NCBI GenBank assembly: GCA_002083775.1
Contig: MTEI01000002.1
Coordinates: forward strand, 1 to 64,000
DNA length: 64,000 bases
Direction: 5' to 3'
Origin: Rhodoferax ferrireducens
GTDB lineage: Bacteria > Pseudomonadota > Gammaproteobacteria > Burkholderiales > Burkholderiaceae_C
The notes beneath the pieces are model-generated. The model worked only from the letters and a program-made list of their open reading frames with translations, was not told where the DNA came from and searched no databases. Within the stretch, counting starts at the first letter, position 1, and the number at the start of each line of letters is the position of its first letter. Of the stretch, positions 1,517 through 60,204 are shown in pieces. The position numbers and the translations under genes are program-made.

Positions 1517-4387
1517 TCACATCGCGATCACAAAAATATTCCGGTCCGGCAGGTCCGGCCAAACCAGCGCTTGGCCCGGGGCCAGCAGGCTGGCGCCGTG
1601 CTGCGCTGCGGCCTGTGATGCCGCCTCGGGCGACGCGTGCATCAGGATGAAGCGCATGCTGCGCGCGCCGCGCACCAGTGTGATCTCAGCCTGTGGCCAG
1701 TGGCTCGGCAGGTGAGGGTTGAAGACCAGCGTTTGCGCGGTTTGCCTCAAGCCGAAAATGGATTCGATCACGGCCCGGTGCATCCAGGCTGCCGCACCGG
1801 TGTACCAGCTCCAGCCGCCGCGCCCGACATACGGTGGCTGGCTGTACACATCAGCCGCCATCACATACGGCTCCAACCCGTACAGCGGACCGCGCGTGGG
1901 GTGGCTGGCGCGATGTGCCGGGCTCAAATAGGTCAAATAGCGATAGGCGGCGTCGCCCCCGGACACCGCGGCTTGGGCCATCAGCGCCCAGATGCCCGCG
2001 TGGTTGTACTGCCCGCCGTTTTCGCGCACACCTGGCGGGTAGGCCTGGATGTAACCGGCGCTGGGCAGCGCATCGCTCAAAGGCGGGTCCAGCAGCTTGA
2101 TCAGCCCGGCCTGGGGGTCAACCAGATAAGTTTCTGCCGAGGCCATGGCTTGGCGCGCCAGTTCGGGCGGTGCAGCCTCTGAGAGCACGGCCCAGGCCTG
2201 GGCGATCAGGTCGATGCGGCCTTGGGTGTTGTCTTGCGAGCCCAGGGGCTGGCCGTCGTCAAAGTAGGCACGCTTGAACCATTGGCCGTCCCAGGCGGTG
2301 CTGGCCAGCGTCTGCCTCAAAGCGGTGGCCACCCGTTGCCAGCGTTGGACCCGCACACTGTCGCCACGTGCCAATGCCCAGGGCGCAAAGTCGGCAATCA
2401 GGCGGCACAAAAACCAGCCCAGCCAGACAGACTCGCCCCGGCCTTCGATGCCGACGCGGTTCATGCCGTCGTTCCAGTCGCCGCTGCCCATCAGCGGCAG
2501 GCCGTGGCTGCCCAGCGTCAGGCTGCGGTCGATGGTGCGCGCAGTGTGTTCATAAACCGAGGCGGTTTCCGGGCTGATGCTGGGACTGTCATAGGCGTCT
2601 TCTGCCCCGGCGGCAATGGCGCTGCCTTCCAGAAAGGCCACCTGCACATCCAGTACACCGGTGTCGTCGGTGGCTTGCAGGTAATGCGTGCAGGCGGCCA
2701 CCAGCCACAGCCGGTCGTCAGAAAAATGGGTACGCACGCCCGCACCGGTGGGCGCATGCCACCAGTGCTGCACGTCGCCCTGCACAAACTGGCGCGAGGC
2801 ATGCAACACAATTTGCGCGCGCAGCATGGCCGGTGCGGCCCAGGCCAGGGCCATGGCGTCTTGCAACTGGTCGCGAAAACCGGTGGCACCACCGGCCTGG
2901 TAAAAGCCGGACTTGGCCCACAGGCGGCAAGACACGGCCTGGTACAGCAGCCAGCGGTTGACCATGGCGTTGAGCAGCGGGTCCGGGGTCTGGACGGTGG
3001 TGGCACCCAGCAGTTGGTCCCAAAACACCTGCACCTGTGCCAGCCGGTCGGCGGCTGGCAAGGCTGTCGCCTGCGCCAGCAGGGGTGCCACCTGCACCGC
3101 GCTGGCGGCAAAACCTAGCAGGAAAGTGCATTGGGCCGTCTGCCCGGCGGCCACATCCCGGTGGGTGGAGAGCGCCGCGCAGGGGTCCAGCCCGTCGCCG
3201 CTGATCTGGCCAAAGTAATCTGGCAGCACCAGGCGGCCCCTTGCATCAAACAGCTCTCGCCGGTCACAGGTCCAGTCGCTGGCATCCATCGCTTTGGGGC
3301 TGGCGTCTGCCACGCTCAGGAAAGCGGTGCCTTCGCCAAACCCGGCGGCGCGCTCGCGCTGGGTGGCCAGCAGGGTGGTGCAACCGCTTTGGTGCATCAC
3401 GGCAGTGCGCACGGTGCCACGGTCGCTACGGTTGGCACCCATCAGCCATTCGGCGATGCCGATCAGGCGCAGGTGCAGGGTTTTGTAGCCGTGGTTGGTC
3501 AGGTTGAGATGCACGTGCTTGATGGCGGTGTCGGTGTCCACACACCAAGTGGCGCTGATGTCCAGATCGCCGTGGCGGTGCGCCATGCGGCTGAAGCCTT
3601 GCCCGTGGGTCACCTGGTAGCTCAGCACACTGGCCACCCCGGCACCGGGCGCCACCGGCCAGACCTCGCGGGTTTGGGTGTTTTGCACCAGAAACCACTC
3701 GGAGGGCGGGTCAGACAAGGGGTCGTTGGACCAGCCGGTGAGCTGGTTCAGACGGCTGTTAATGGCCCAGCTGTAGCCGCCGCCCGCCTCAGACAGGTGC
3801 GCGCCAAAGTGGGCGTTGGCCAGCACATTGATCCACGGCCGGGGTGGGCGCTGCCCGGCTGAGACGGCAAAGCTGAACTCGCCGGATGCTGGTGCAAAGG
3901 CGCCCTCAGCGGGGCGAGGGCTGGCGTTGGTGGGTGCGGCCAGGGGCAGGGCGCTGGTGGCGGTTTCTTGCCGGTGTGCCAGCGCGACCTCTTGCAAATG
4001 CAGCCAGTCCTGCACATGGTGGTTGAGCGGTCGGCCATCGGCACGCAGCACCATACGCGCCAGGCTGTGCAGGGTGTTGAGCTCGGCGTGGGTCAGGTCG
4101 TCAGCGCGCAGCAGATGCAGGCGGGTGCTGGCAGCACCCGCCTTGGCGCTGGCATCGGCGGCGTGGCGGTCACGCAGGGTGGCCAGTTCATGGTCTAGCG
4201 TCATCAGGTATGAAGCGGGCTCGGCGTTCACCACCACCAGATCGCAGGGTACGTTACCCCACAGCCACAATCCCAAGGCCTGTGACAGGGCGCGGATCAG
4301 CCCCAGCCCCTCGTTGACGCTCACCAGCACCAGCAGCATAGGCCGGTCGCCCGAGATACCAAACGCCACAACAGCCGACGGTCGCAC
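1517..4387 (-). CDS. ndvB: Cyclic beta-1,2-glucan synthase, C-terminal GH94 part (frameshifted)
   Basis: This 956-residue frame is the C-terminal third of an NdvB-type protein: a sugar-binding beta-sandwich followed by a GH94 phosphorylase-like (alpha/alpha)6 barrel. Visible family motifs are 'GFRDQLQDAMALAW' (about residue 500, containing the predicted general-acid Asp), 'GSGDWNDGMNRVG' (about 635) and 'YNHAGIWALMAQA' (about 795). In the family this part trims or controls the chain length of periplasmic beta-1,2-glucan. It overlaps the N-terminal part by 67 bases in another frame. 'FGISGDRP', normally preceded by 'LW R' in the same chain, is split between the two frames, so the GTG at 4387 is not a genuine start. 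With one base restored near 4361-4363 the two parts make a typical protein of about 2,800 residues. Confidence 0.85.
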   Translation of the reverse strand: MRPSAVVAFGISGDRPMLLVLVSVNEGLGLIRALSQALGLWLWGNVPCDLVVVNAEPASYLMTLDHELATLRDRHAADASAKAGAASTRLHLLRADDLTHAELNTLHSLARMVLRADGRPLNHHVQDWLHLQEVALAHRQETATSALPLAAPTNASPRPAEGAFAPASGEFSFAVSAGQRPPRPWINVLANAHFGAHLSEAGGGYSWAINSRLNQLTGWSNDPLSDPPSEWFLVQNTQTREVWPVAPGAGVASVLSYQVTHGQGFSRMAHRHGDLDISATWCVDTDTAIKHVHLNLTNHGYKTLHLRLIGIAEWLMGANRSDRGTVRTAVMHQSGCTTLLATQRERAAGFGEGTAFLSVADASPKAMDASDWTCDRRELFDARGRLVLPDYFGQISGDGLDPCAALSTHRDVAAGQTAQCTFLLGFAASAVQVAPLLAQATALPAADRLAQVQVFWDQLLGATTVQTPDPLLNAMVNRWLLYQAVSCRLWAKSGFYQAGGATGFRDQLQDAMALAWAAPAMLRAQIVLHASRQFVQGDVQHWWHAPTGAGVRTHFSDDRLWLVAACTHYLQATDDTGVLDVQVAFLEGSAIAAGAEDAYDSPSISPETASVYEHTARTIDRSLTLGSHGLPLMGSGDWNDGMNRVGIEGRGESVWLGWFLCRLIADFAPWALARGDSVRVQRWQRVATALRQTLASTAWDGQWFKRAYFDDGQPLGSQDNTQGRIDLIAQAWAVLSEAAPPELARQAMASAETYLVDPQAGLIKLLDPPLSDALPSAGYIQAYPPGVRENGGQYNHAGIWALMAQAAVSGGDAAYRYLTYLSPAHRASHPTRGPLYGLEPYVMAADVYSQPPYVGRGGWSWYTGAAAWMHRAVIESIFGLRQTAQTLVFNPHLPSHWPQAEITLVRGARSMRFILMHASPEAASQAAAQHGASLLAPGQALVWPDLPDRNIFVIAM

Positions 4388-52928: not shown

Positions 52929-53112
52929 GATGACGGTCGACTCAGCCAATTCGACGGTGATGATTTCGTTGCTTCCATCAGCGCAGTCAGTCATGAATTT
53001 AGCCCCAAAAGGACAGGATTTTAGGGGGCCCAACAGGTCTGTCAGACTTTGGGTGCGACTCAGACTGCTGTGGGCTTGGTAGTTAAGACATCCACGCCAC
53101 ATCTGCACCCGG

Positions 53113-53238
53113 CAGGGCGACAGGGTCAGGGGCGTGCGGTTTTGGGGCCAAATCACGCGCGGGGCCAAGGGCTCAGTACGCCAGCGCCTGGGGACGCGCG
53201 CCTTTGGCCCCAAAGCCCGGTCCCCTGACCCAATCACC
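53113..53238 (-). repeat. Long hairpin element, copy A
   Basis: Read on the minus strand it starts GGTGATTGGGTCAGGGGACC and ends CGCCCCTGACCCTGTCGCC, giving long imperfect inverted arms (GGGTCAGGGG/CCCCTGACCC and GGGGCCAAA/TTTGGCCCC) around a central TGGCGTACTG. It matches the element at 53461-53588 in inverted orientation. It lies upstream of thyA in a gap of about 800 bases between thyA and the FAD oxidase gene. Confidence 0.8.
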
Positions 53239-53272
53239 CTGCCTCACGCTGTTGGTGTTAGAAGGTTTGTAT

Positions 53273-53331
53273 GAGAAAACAGGCTCTAGCCCATATGCAA
53301 TAAGGCCGAGCAGCTATCAAAATGTGTTTAG
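53273..53331 (+). repeat. Palindromic repeat, copy 10
   Basis: CAGGCTCTAGCCCATATGC and AAGGCCGAGCAGCTATCAAA are the cores. It stands between the two inverted hairpin elements. Confidence 0.82.
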
Positions 53332-53460
53332 TTGCAGTGTTGACGCCAGTTTGATGAATCACCCAGCCGGATCACCGGTCAGGTTGGCGGAGTCACTTTA
53401 CGGCCAACAGTCCTCGGCTGTTCAGGATGTTCTTCCGCCGACCCAACACCGCCAAGGCGT

Positions 53461-53588
53461 GGTGATTGGGTCAGGTGACCGGGCTTTGGGGTGCAAGGCG
53501 CGCGTCCAATAGCTTTGGCGTACTGTTGAACCAGCCCCGCGCGTGATTGCATCCCAAAACCGCACGCACCTGACCCGGTCGCCGCGCC
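53461..53588 (+). repeat. Long hairpin element, copy B
   Basis: It starts GGTGATTGGGTCAGGTGACC and ends ACGCACCTGACCCGGTCGCC. The arms pair as GGGTCAGGTG/CACCTGACCC and GGGGTGCAA/TTGCATCCC around TTGGCGTACTG. Compared with copy A, paired positions differ together (G-C to T-A in the outer arm, CCAAA/TTTGG to TGCAA/TTGCA in the inner arm). Between 53589 and the FAD oxidase stop at 53738 nothing else is recognisable. Confidence 0.8.
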
Positions 53589-53737
53589 GTTCAAAGCGAC
53601 AGCTTGGGCACACACAAGACAGAACTCCCAAGAAAACCATCAGCACAATCCACAAGGCGCACAAACAAACGAGCGGTCTGGGCGATCACACCACCTTCAA
53701 TCGCACCCCAGACGCAGAGGTGACGACGCTCAGAAAT

Positions 53738-57609: not shown

Positions 57610-58439
57610 TGAGTGACTGACCGGGTCGTCAAAAACCCGGTCAGCGCGGCAAGCAATTGCTCAGGCGCCTCGGTCATCTGGTTGTGCCCCACGGGCAACT
57701 GGATGACTTGGGCGCTTTTTTCGTGGGCGCGCGCGGCTGTGATGAGGCTTTGCGCAGCTTTGGGCGGGGTCATCTGGTCCAGCGCGCCCAGCACAAACAG
57801 CACCGGGCAGGTGATCTGCGCCATGGCTTGTTCGCCGTTTCCGTAGCTGTCACAGGCTGTGAAACCCCGGTGAAACACGTTGACATGGGTGTTGCTGGCC
57901 AGCACCCGGCGCGCCAAGGCGATGGAGGCACCATACACCCAGGTGCCCGGCCCCAGCGCAGACGGTGGCGGTGACAGCGTGCTGCGAGAGAACACATTGA
58001 CCAGCTTGATCGCCTCCTCGGGGTTGTGAATGGAGGCTTCCAGCAGCGCGGGAGACACCAGCATCGGGTGGGCGGTGCCCACCAGCGCCAGGTGGCTGAC
58101 CCGCTCTTTCAGTCTGGCGGCTGCTTCCAGCGCAATCAGTGAGCCCCAACTATGACCAACCAGCGCGGCGGTCTGCACGCCTGCTGCGTTCAGCAGCGCG
58201 GCGATGAAGTCGGCGGCTTCTTCCACCGAGCTGGGTGCTTCACCCGCGCTTTTGCCGTGGCCCGGCAAATCAATGGCCAGCACATTGAAGCCGTGGTGCG
58301 CCAGGGAACGCGTCTGCAAAATCCAGACGCTGTGGTCGTTCAACACGCCATGGATGAACACCACGGTCGGTTTGGCCGCGTCAAACGCTTTGCCGCCGGT
58401 GTAGCAGTAGGTTTTGGCTTGGTTGACGGTGAGGTACAT
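57603..58439 (-). CDS. Alpha/beta hydrolase
   Basis: A 278-residue hydrolase. 'VVFIHGVLNDHSVW' is the oxyanion region, 'ALVGHSWGSLIALEAA' (nucleophile Ser in GHSWGS, about residue 96) the elbow, 'VLGALDQMTPPKAA' the acid Asp, and 'LPVGHNQMTEAPEQ' the catalytic His. The triad is complete. There is no signal peptide. The substrate is unknown, and it may be an esterase or C-C hydrolase. It is a single gene downstream of a repeat-rich gap. Confidence 0.9.
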   Translation of the reverse strand: MYLTVNQAKTYCYTGGKAFDAAKPTVVFIHGVLNDHSVWILQTRSLAHHGFNVLAIDLPGHGKSAGEAPSSVEEAADFIAALLNAAGVQTAALVGHSWGSLIALEAAARLKERVSHLALVGTAHPMLVSPALLEASIHNPEEAIKLVNVFSRSTLSPPPSALGPGTWVYGASIALARRVLASNTHVNVFHRGFTACDSYGNGEQAMAQITCPVLFVLGALDQMTPPKAAQSLITAARAHEKSAQVIQLPVGHNQMTEAPEQLLAALTGFLTTRSVTHQ

Positions 58440-58460
58440 GCTGTGGTTCCTGCTGGTTTT

Positions 58461-58520
58461 GTATAAGAAAAATGCCTCTAGCCCTTATTCTTTAAAGGCT
58501 GATAGCTATGTTTTTTATGC
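58461..58520 (+). repeat. Palindromic repeat, copy 11
   Basis: AATGCCTCTAGCCCTTATTC and AAAGGCTGATAGCTATG are the cores. It lies 21 bases upstream of the hydrolase start codon and 78 bases from the double-hairpin structure. Confidence 0.88.
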
Positions 58521-58598
58521 TTGTATATCACGTTGTCGCGCGAATTTTGAAGTTGAAGAAAAGGTTCATTCACGGACGTGCTGGCGCTTCAGGTGGGC

Positions 58599-58843
58599 CA
58601 TGTGGGTGAAGGCAGGGGGCCTCATACGCGTTGCTTTTTAAAATCGGCCCCCTGCCTTCACCCACATGACCGACGAGCGACTTGAGGTGCGCAAACCAAA
58701 GGAGCCCGGAAGTCCAGGGGCCCGGGTTCTCGGCTGTTAAACGATGGCGAACTTGAGCGCGTGCCGCAGTGGGTGGGGTATGGGGGTGCGCCGATTTTAA
58801 AAAGCAACGCGTATGAGGCGCGCCCCCATACCCCGCCCGCTGC
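58599..58843. repeat. Double hairpin with complementary 24-nt loops
   Basis: Hairpin 1 has a perfect 23-bp stem (58599-58621 with 58646-58668). Hairpin 2 has a stem of about 27 bp (58766-58792 with 58817-58843) in which the three differences are G-T pairs. Each loop is 24 bases (58622-58645 and 58793-58816), and the loops with their two closing bases form a perfect 28-bp inverted repeat of each other (58620-58647 and 58791-58818). A 97-base spacer lies between the hairpins. The gap from 58440 to 58908 holds no convincing gene; a 112-codon open frame through the structure looks fortuitous. Confidence 0.85.
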
Positions 58844-58908
58844 CACACAAGACGCAAGACAGCCAACGACATCATGAATTTGGCAGCCAGCCCAAGCATG
58901 ACAACCAC

Positions 58909-60204
58909 TCACCCCCGCTCCGCCGCCTTCAGCGCCCGCTTCAAATCGTCAATCAAATCATCCGCATCCTCCAGCCCGATCGACAGCCGAATCGTCCCCT
59001 GGGTGATGCCACCCGCCGCCAGCGCCTCGTCACTCATCCGGAAATGCGTGGTGCTGGCCGGGTGAATCACCAGGCTGCGGCAATCGCCCACATTGGCCAA
59101 GTGGCTGAAGATCTTGAGCGCCTCGACAAACTTCTTGCCCTGCTCGCGGCTGCCTTTCAAATCAAAACTGAACACCGATCCCGCCCCGCGTGGTAACAAC
59201 TTGGCCGCCAGCGCGTGGCTGGGGTGACTTTCCAGCAGCGGGTGCCCAACGCGCGCCACCAAGGGTTGGCTGGCCAGAAACTGCACCACTTTTTGCGTGT
59301 TTTCCATGTGCCGCGCCATGCGCAACGACAAAGTTTCCATGCCCTGCAAAATCAGCCAGGCCGAGTGCGGGCTCAAGCACGCACCAAAATCGCGCAAGCC
59401 TTCACGCCGGGCACGCAGCAAAAACGCCCCCACGGTCGATTCTTCTGAAAACACCATGTTGTGAAAGCCGTCGTAGCCTTGCGTCAGCTCGGGGAATTTG
59501 CCGGACTTTTCCCAGTCAAAACTGCCGCCATCCACGACCAGCCCGCCAATCACCGTGCCGTGGCCGCTCAAAAACTTGGTGGCCGAGTGGTACACCAGAT
59601 CGGCACCCAGCTCAAATGGCTTGATCAGCCAGGGGGTGGTCAGGGTCGAATCGACCAGCAGCGGCACCCCGGCTTCATGCGCTACGGCGCTGACGCTGGG
59701 GATGTCCAGCACATCCAGCCCCGGGTTGCCCACGGTTTCACCAAAAAACAGCCGGGTGTTGGGCTGCACGGCGGCGCGCCAGCCGTCGATGTCACCGGGT
59801 TTGACAAACGTCGTCTCAATACCAAAGCGGCGCAGCGTGTAGTGCAGCAGGTTCTGGCTGCCGCCATACAAGGCGGTGGAAGCCACGATGTGCGAGCCTG
59901 CGCCCATCAGCGTGGCCACGCTCAGGTGCAGTGCCGCCTGGCCGCTGGCAGTGCTGATGGCACCAATACCGCCTTCCAGCGCGCTGATGCGCTGCTCCAG
60001 CACCGCATTGGTCGGGTTGCTGATGCGACTGTACACATGGCCTGCACGCTCCAGATTGAACAGCGCCTGGGCGTGGTCACTGCTCTCAAACACAAACGAG
60101 GTGGTCAGGTGGATCGGCACCGCACGGGCGCCAGTGACGGGGTCGGGCGCCGCACCGGCGTGCAGCGCGAGGGTGTCAAAACCGGGGTCAGCGTAGCCGG
60201 GCAT
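58909..60204 (-). CDS. metY: O-acetylhomoserine sulfhydrylase (homocysteine synthase)
   Basis: A 431-residue PLP enzyme of the Cys/Met metabolism family that makes homocysteine from O-acetylhomoserine and sulfide. 'VYSRISNPTNAVLEQRISAL' and 'ATLYGGSQNLL'-type sequence bind the cofactor phosphate, and 'LVYHSATKFLSGHGTVIGG' holds the PLP lysine (about 208). The length and 'NPGLDVLDIPSVSAVAHEAG' favour MetY over the shorter MetZ or MetB. It is a single gene with the double hairpin after its stop. A role in methionine synthesis by direct sulfhydrylation is inferred from the family. Confidence 0.9.
   Translation of the reverse strand: MPGYADPGFDTLALHAGAAPDPVTGARAVPIHLTTSFVFESSDHAQALFNLERAGHVYSRISNPTNAVLEQRISALEGGIGAISTASGQAALHLSVATLMGAGSHIVASTALYGGSQNLLHYTLRRFGIETTFVKPGDIDGWRAAVQPNTRLFFGETVGNPGLDVLDIPSVSAVAHEAGVPLLVDSTLTTPWLIKPFELGADLVYHSATKFLSGHGTVIGGLVVDGGSFDWEKSGKFPELTQGYDGFHNMVFSEESTVGAFLLRARREGLRDFGACLSPHSAWLILQGMETLSLRMARHMENTQKVVQFLASQPLVARVGHPLLESHPSHALAAKLLPRGAGSVFSFDLKGSREQGKKFVEALKIFSHLANVGDCRSLVIHPASTTHFRMSDEALAAGGITQGTIRLSIGLEDADDLIDDLKRALKAAERG

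Follow-up and report, generated by a model that had tools for sequence, protein, structure and literature searches.

The window analysed here, a 64,000-nt stretch of a Rhodoferax ferrireducens contig (MTEI01000002.1, positions 1 to 64,000 of the forward strand), carries a pair of long inverted hairpins between two minus-strand genes, an alpha/beta-hydrolase gene (PF00561; 57603-58439) and a metY-like gene encoding a Cys/Met metabolism PLP enzyme (PF01053; 58909-60204), the latter with its 3' end toward the second hairpin. This setting, given in an earlier note on the same DNA, was confirmed by gene and Pfam calls. The whole paired unit (58585-58860) consists of hairpin 1 (58593-58674, minus strand), a spacer (58675-58760) and hairpin 2 (58761-58848, plus strand), the two hairpins being referred to, by our own labels, as the beta and alpha type, respectively. 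Two covariance models of the family, R1 and R2, match hairpin 1 at 58595-58673 and 58597-58670 and hairpin 2 at 58765-58843 and 58768-58841. The conserved strand of the family (CGATTT...ATGAG) is the minus strand in hairpin 1 and the plus strand in hairpin 2, which is inverted with respect to it. Family conservation delimits a core in hairpin 1, CGATTTTAAAAAGCAACGCGTATGAG (58621-58646, minus strand), proposed to comprise an internal loop and an apical part, and the core of hairpin 2 (58792-58817, plus strand) is an identical 26-nt sequence. A second copy of the whole unit was found at G000:C18:29458-29709 (75% identity, E 4e-46); it contains a counterpart of hairpin 1, and the spacer is partly alignable with this copy and with the orthologues in genomes G084 and G005.

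Folding of the plus strand as RNA (58590-58850) recovered both hairpins where they had been described, with a 23-bp unbroken stem in the first, a 27-bp stem containing G.U pairs in the second and a loop of 24 nt in each. The minimum free energy of this segment (-156.3 kcal/mol, z -9.8) was equalled by none of 200 shuffles. A separate inverted-repeat search placed the arms at 58593-58621/58646-58674 (93% complementary) and 58761-58792/58817-58848 (84%), and outer arms of 62 nt are also present at 58604-58665/58773-58834 (77%). The loops are exact reverse complements, as claimed: with up to three mismatches allowed, the 24-nt loop has two matches in the window, both exact and one on each strand, against an expectation of 0.00. 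Also, six perfect 18-mer inverted-repeat seeds (gap of up to 60) occur in the window and none in each of 20 Markov resamples. The hairpins at 58593-58674 and 58761-58848 are thus real and far above chance expectation. The three G.T pairs of hairpin 2 on the plus strand correspond to three A.C mismatches on the other strand.

Other palindromic sequences occur in the same window. Separate and unrelated nested inverted repeats occupy 53100-53600, with 71-nt arms at 53174-53244/53455-53525 (83%) and a minimum free energy of -305 kcal/mol (z -16.1), and are absent among the hairpin-model matches listed. Another short palindromic repeat, of the CTCTAGCCCTT...GATAGCTAT type, lies at 58474-58512, with a similar one, recognised by eye, at 53285-53320; the type is found at loci L005 (approximately 1640-1690) and L007 (approximately 3375-3415) as well, and occurs both between genes and within an MmeI-type ORF.

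Further copies of the hairpins, sought after the earlier note, were found across Rhodoferax and other genomes of its family. With up to three mismatches, the 24-nt loop occurs six times in this genome (0 for the reversed control), and its sole exact match in a named record is from Rhodoferax sp. BLA1. Model R1 was built from 22 hairpins, collected mainly by loop sequence and in two cases by BLAST. This genome holds at least 19 distinct hairpin places, 18 among the R1 matches listed and one more recovered by another search. Since palindromes can be reported on both strands, counts of model-match rows are inflated, and the maximum of 34 R1 matches per genome, to which this inflation applies, corresponds to a copy number of tens at most, not hundreds; genome G062, for instance, has six R1 matches. 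With the own genome counted each time, R1 matched 72 of the 89 genomes of the genus, with 44 of the 50 of good quality among them, 52 of the family's 399 genomes (28 of its 141 genera), and 5 of 349 genomes of the order, all five within the family. The broader model R2 matched nine of 399 genomes of the order, six in the family and three outside it; of these last three matches two have the core, and the third, in genome G267, is a plain palindrome with the core missing and was not counted as a member. Single family members with longer apical parts occur in two other families of the order (L299 in G057 and L302 in G230).

When a single hairpin of the T1 type was compared with other genomes, similarity away from its own locus spanned only about positions 750-855 of the query. 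In many matches this type measures approximately 86-91 bp, and the window hairpins are 82 and 88 nt long. Searches of plasmids and phages with the T1 hairpin, of plasmids with the window unit and of IMG/VR with two exact core patterns were all negative, and on these grounds a plasmid or phage origin was rejected. The window unit is one copy of a dispersed chromosomal repeat family in Rhodoferax and its relatives, the copies of which differ in presence between species.

On the conserved strand, family members present an outer stem, CGATTT, a small inner hairpin, (T/C)ATGAG and the outer stem again; CGATGT...CTGAG is one of the exceptions. Several classes of the inner part exist, e.g. AAAAAGCGAAGCG, GCAAAGCGCAGCG, TGGGCCTTTGACAG and TGGTACCCCAG. 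Set out as opposed strands, the core suggests a probable geometry of G.A, A.G, U.U, U-A, U.U and C-G. Among 38 readable sequences the U-A position has U-A in 34 and G-C in the other 4; variation on both sides is seen at the C-G position as well. The stems show the covariation that had been proposed as a check, with 24 of the 27 pairs altered on both sides in the 22 hairpins, most of which were found by their loops; 84.3% of the cells of these hairpins are pairing, against 64.8% after shuffling and 37.6-42.4% after sliding. In the 39-row alignment A3, for which hairpins had to pair at 17 or more of 22 outer positions, the 98% pairing arises by construction from the selection on outer pairing, the inner pairs being unselected. 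Complete compensations and G.U intermediates are both common between orthologous stems at the cobS-like and MmeI-type loci, as counted over genome pairs, which are non-independent, in hairpins preselected for pairing. The core is conserved across genera. The outer stem sequence is therefore free to vary widely provided that it pairs on the CGATTT strand, the core being nearly fixed. That the stems vary yet nearly always fold on one strand around a conserved core suggests that a folded single strand is recognised.

Imperfect pairs differ strongly between the two strands. On the CTCAT strand, where an A.C cell equals a G.T on the CGATTT strand, the 22 hairpins carry 75 A.C and 2 G.T imperfect cells. 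In 61 hairpins from six genomes, which remain of 100 model rows once 39 that repeat these sites on the opposite strand are set aside, the CGATTT strand has 131 G.T against 24 A.C, with a similar lean in every core class (A 64:4, B 33:9, C 28:8, D 6:3), and RNA folding energy is lower on this strand in 51 of the 61. A set of 143 hairpins, picked from fetched loci by core sequence alone, averages 2.45 G.T against 0.17 A.C per hairpin on the CGATTT strand, and 43 of their 47 locus clusters lean to G.T, two to A.C and two are tied; many loci of this set had been fetched with R1, which implies some ascertainment, whereas the first 22 hairpins hardly depended on the stem. The excess of G.T over A.C on the CGATTT strand indicates that pairing is maintained on one strand, as RNA or as single-stranded DNA. 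The earlier observation that stem changes in hairpin 2 keep pairing can accordingly be extended to the whole family, but for the CGATTT strand specifically.

Hairpins occur singly and in pairs. The 73 loci chosen for comparison contain, in addition to single hairpins, 35 divergent pairs (3' ends outward) at 15 loci, four same-direction neighbours and one convergent locus, found in seven genomes beside a gene which, from its first residues, we take to be cobS. All core-to-core gaps at these 73 loci are at least 111 bp; the cores are 111-267 bp apart in 23 of the 35 pairs and 1224-1586 bp apart in the remaining 12. Cores within a pair are strikingly alike, with a mean edit distance of 1.17 (19 pairs identical, 16 non-identical) and stems 60% identical. 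For the four genomes with at least three pairs each (19 pairs) the distance is 1.21, against a mean of 5.76 and a minimum of 2.63 in 2000 permutations within genomes. The 35 pairs are non-independent, since they fall in 15 loci and ten of them represent the MmeI-type locus; when each locus contributes a single pair, the distance is 1.8 (range 1.6-2.5 over choices), against 5.4 when permuted (minimum 3.2 of 400). Taken by class, the matching persists in A (12 pairs) and B (15 pairs), no such signal comes from the 4 pairs of class D, and class C is represented by one pair. Of the nine pairs that are one edit apart, five (L104, L110, L122, L126 and L239) have a transversion at one and the same apical position, so exact complementarity of the cores is not required. 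Complementarity of the two loops thus holds as a rule throughout the family, with cores matched within pairs far above chance, but the kissing of the loops proposed in the earlier note is weakened as a strict requirement by the 16 non-identical pairs and by these transversions.

When the orthologous loci of the 30 best among 73 matching genomes were scanned by core pattern, three carried the metY unit, namely those of the window, G084 and G005. Since the units of G084 and G005 occupy the orthologous site, an assembly artefact, which had been considered at the outset, is excluded. These orthologues differ in hairpin 1 by three neighbouring base pairs that are swapped in both arms. The window and G084 have the GCAACG variant of the core in both hairpins; in G005 both cores are of class B and differ mutually by one U-A/G-C pair. 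Both cores carry TTTT in the window and TTTC in G084. At a second locus, with flanks 92% and 87% identical between G061 and G079, both hairpins are of class C in G061 and both of the CGACTT form of class B in G079, G084 and G010, G098 having one class C hairpin among the hairpins listed. A third locus has CGATTT...TATGAG as both cores in G061 and G079, and CGATGT...TCTGAG as both in G098, with flanks 85% and 74% identical. Both cores of a pair therefore differ together between species at three orthologous loci; this joint change may reflect selection, templated copying or replacement of the whole unit. At the cobS-like locus the hairpins are conserved in eight genomes (loci 72-94% identical), and the spacer and outer flanks are divergent. 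Neither a clean empty site nor a target duplication could be recovered at the metY or L100 locus, where element-free genomes are too diverged or rearranged, and this, together with one old pair shared by eight genomes, makes current mobility uncertain.

Heuristic gene calls, which covered 133 of the 140 unique hairpins, place 54 of the 62 locus clusters between genes and eight within them. On the 3' side of the hairpin a gene 3' end is found in 25 clusters, a gene 5' end in 10 and neither within 150 bp in 19; the corresponding figures on the 5' side are 6, 4 and 44. A recurring pair lies inside a restriction-modification gene, identified at L007 as an MmeI-type ORF by Pfam and PADLOC. In 10 of 11 distinct loci checked, a single open frame with an NPPF motif runs across both hairpins; L224 is without the frame, L037 and L227 come from one genome and several frames exceed the locus ends. 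Beside the first hairpin of L007, the MmeI-type ORF also contains palindromes of the CATCCCGGACTCGATCCGGGATCC type (1880-2190), which encode HPGLDPGS-like peptides.

On balance, we favour the view that the element is a dispersed, chromosomal, non-autonomous palindromic repeat, akin to REP/BIME (REPIN) sequences and probably recognised as a folded single strand. A protein may bind the folded strand via its core, in the way that HUH/Y1 transposases and TnpA-REP recognise irregular palindromes, the most likely substrate being single-stranded DNA exposed during replication or transcription. Such a protein would copy or move single hairpins or inverted pairs, and the cores of a unit would stay alike either if one factor must read both or if inverted cores template each other. 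Counting against this REP-like reading, tolerance of G.T suits RNA no less than single-stranded DNA. Both a structured RNA and a non-autonomous mobile element had been named as candidates in the earlier note, and the dispersed family, with pairing on one strand and tolerance of G.U/G.T, agrees with both in direction. It is also conceivable, if doubtful, that the family represents a class of mobile single-stranded hairpins in which a putative enzyme reads one strand, only a short internal-loop motif is fixed, the stems are nearly free and the two cores act as a matching specificity pair, in a lock-and-key-like manner.

The likeness to REP, BIME and REPIN sequences, as far as the consulted parts of the published descriptions go, lies in dispersed and mostly extragenic hairpins, inverted pairs, strand polarity, irregular palindromes and complementary stem changes (PMC2817692, PMC3733652, PMC8266576). 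In the same sources, a REP palindrome is 20-40 bp long and untagged REP-like sequences are mentioned in Bordetellae (PMC3733652), RAYT genes are said always to lie between two inverted REPs (PMC2817692), and TnpA-REP processes single-stranded, strand-specific REPs, binding one strand of the folded REP and using GTAG (PMC8266576). The window hairpins, at 82 and 88 nt, are about twice as long or more, and REPs have conserved stems and a tag, whereas here the stem is variable and the apical core constant. The family also differs in its lower copy number, in some in-gene copies and in having neither a constant GTAG/CGTC tag nor a copy-flanked transposase that could be found. Within 20-nt flanks of 163 hairpins, GTAG occurs in three on the 5' side and two on the 3' side, and CGTC in 24 and 14, respectively (raw counts, without a background). 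With no GTAG tag and no flanked transposase gene found, the element is not filed as a REP.

Genes matching PF01797 (Y1-transposase), of any type, are present in 79 of the 89 genus genomes. A search of 30 loci around such genes (E <=0.01) gave no R1 match, as did a looser one (E <=1) of 14 loci, the gene sets overlapping partly and covering part of the PF01797 matches. Relatives of the RAYT-like gene of this genome occur in 370 of 399 family genomes, among which, by eye, are all 52 hairpin genomes; being near-universal, the gene does not single these out. RAYT was rejected as the mover, given that most hairpin-free genomes have the gene too and that no hairpin lies near the loci examined. At L208 (1938-2642) and its relatives (four loci, by eye) the RAYT-like gene adjoins a glutamate-synthase-like gene, with no family hairpin nearby.

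Two further systems invite comparison. The ends of IS200/IS605-type elements are two hairpins in the same direction; in the family described here the unit hairpins are inverted and no associated gene was found. Integron attC boxes read GTTRRRY/RYYYAAC, and in a rough test such boxes near the stem foot were seen in just 0 to 7 of 163 hairpins. The features in common, in the available part of the source, are strand-specific folded palindromes with irregular stems for IS200/IS605 and folded single-strand recognition for attC (PMC8266576).

The only near match in the literature searched, within the portions of the sources available, was the Betaproteobacterial repeat element (BRE), and nothing in that literature described the core, the strand bias or the matched pairs. 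BRE is about 90 bp long, GC-rich, chromosomal and inter- or intragenic, and its hosts include Comamonadaceae such as Rhodoferax ferrireducens (4 copies) and Polaromonas JS666 (29) (Hot et al. 2011, PMC3110155, in the part consulted). Size, GC content, hosts and in-gene copies agree with the hairpin family; BRE is reported in tandem in Bordetella, against core gaps of at least 111 bp at the 73 loci here, and its description in that part is without a hairpin core, strand polarity or matched inverted cores (PMC3110155). From this comparison by description, BRE could belong to the hairpin family, with a likelihood of about one in three.

The strongest competitor to the REP-like reading, possible but rather unlikely in our judgement, is a family of structured non-coding RNAs, in which the CGATTT strand would be transcribed, the hairpin bound by protein or processed, and the repeats would be copies of an RNA-coding stretch. 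Such RNAs would account for G.U being tolerated far more than A.C on one strand, for the one-sided G.U changes common among orthologous stems and for the exchange of the inner U-A pair for G-C (34 and 4 of the 38 readable sequences); furthermore, an 80-nt transcript, bprJ1, is reported from a region of Bordetella pertussis with a repeat of similar size, a relevant precedent if the family is the same (PMC3110155, in the part consulted). It is mainly the G.U tolerance and this transcript that keep the RNA reading open. Against it, the CGATTT strand is often antisense to a gene, with its 3' end facing the gene 3' end (the 25 versus 10 clusters above, 19 having neither), and in six of the eight in-gene clusters, by heuristic gene calls, it is antisense as well. 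A pair would need transcripts from both strands, also inside MmeI-type frames, and T1 similarity extends little past the hairpin. No sigma-70-like site was found in 58400-59000, where merely 0.3 would be expected by chance, and no Rfam family matched the window at gathering score, matches at the element being far under these scores and nearly all to miRNA families.

Neutral quasi-palindromes, in which template switching during replication copies arm on arm and core on core and so yields covariation and matched loops without function, would explain the three base pairs swapped in both arms at the metY locus and the joint differences of the two cores between orthologues. We nevertheless regard this as very unlikely, because correction of arms at the duplex level should give G.T and A.C in about equal numbers and is hard to square with 43 clusters leaning one way and two the other; the conservation of the core across genera, and of hairpins beside divergent spacers at one locus, speaks against it too.

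Even less probable are intrinsic transcription terminators or stabilisers of mRNA 3' ends: hairpins do often lie near gene 3' ends, yet TTTT follows the stem in 1 of 163 cases when the CGATTT strand is read and in 8 of 163 when the other is, and the strand that would be within the mRNA of the upstream gene is the one with the A.C mismatches. Least credible are sites of site-specific recombination or inversion with the core pairs as crossovers, e.g. in the MmeI-type gene, where, in L007, the target-recognition domain and the second half of the methylase region lie between the inverted cores: inversion would disturb that open frame, most pairs are merely 111-267 bp apart, and the loop inversion suggested in the earlier note finds no support in the three aligned metY orthologues, in which spacer and hairpin order are the same.

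REP-type repeats are conserved in sequence, whereas in this family it is the fold and a small internal motif that are kept while the stem drifts, and the bias in mismatches reveals directly which strand folds. This makes two questions testable, namely what reads the hairpins, be it a DNA- or RNA-binding protein or a transposase, and how inverted cores stay matched. The family also provides a natural case in which selection on folding can be told apart from correction by template switching, and its covariance model can be run on any Burkholderiales genome.
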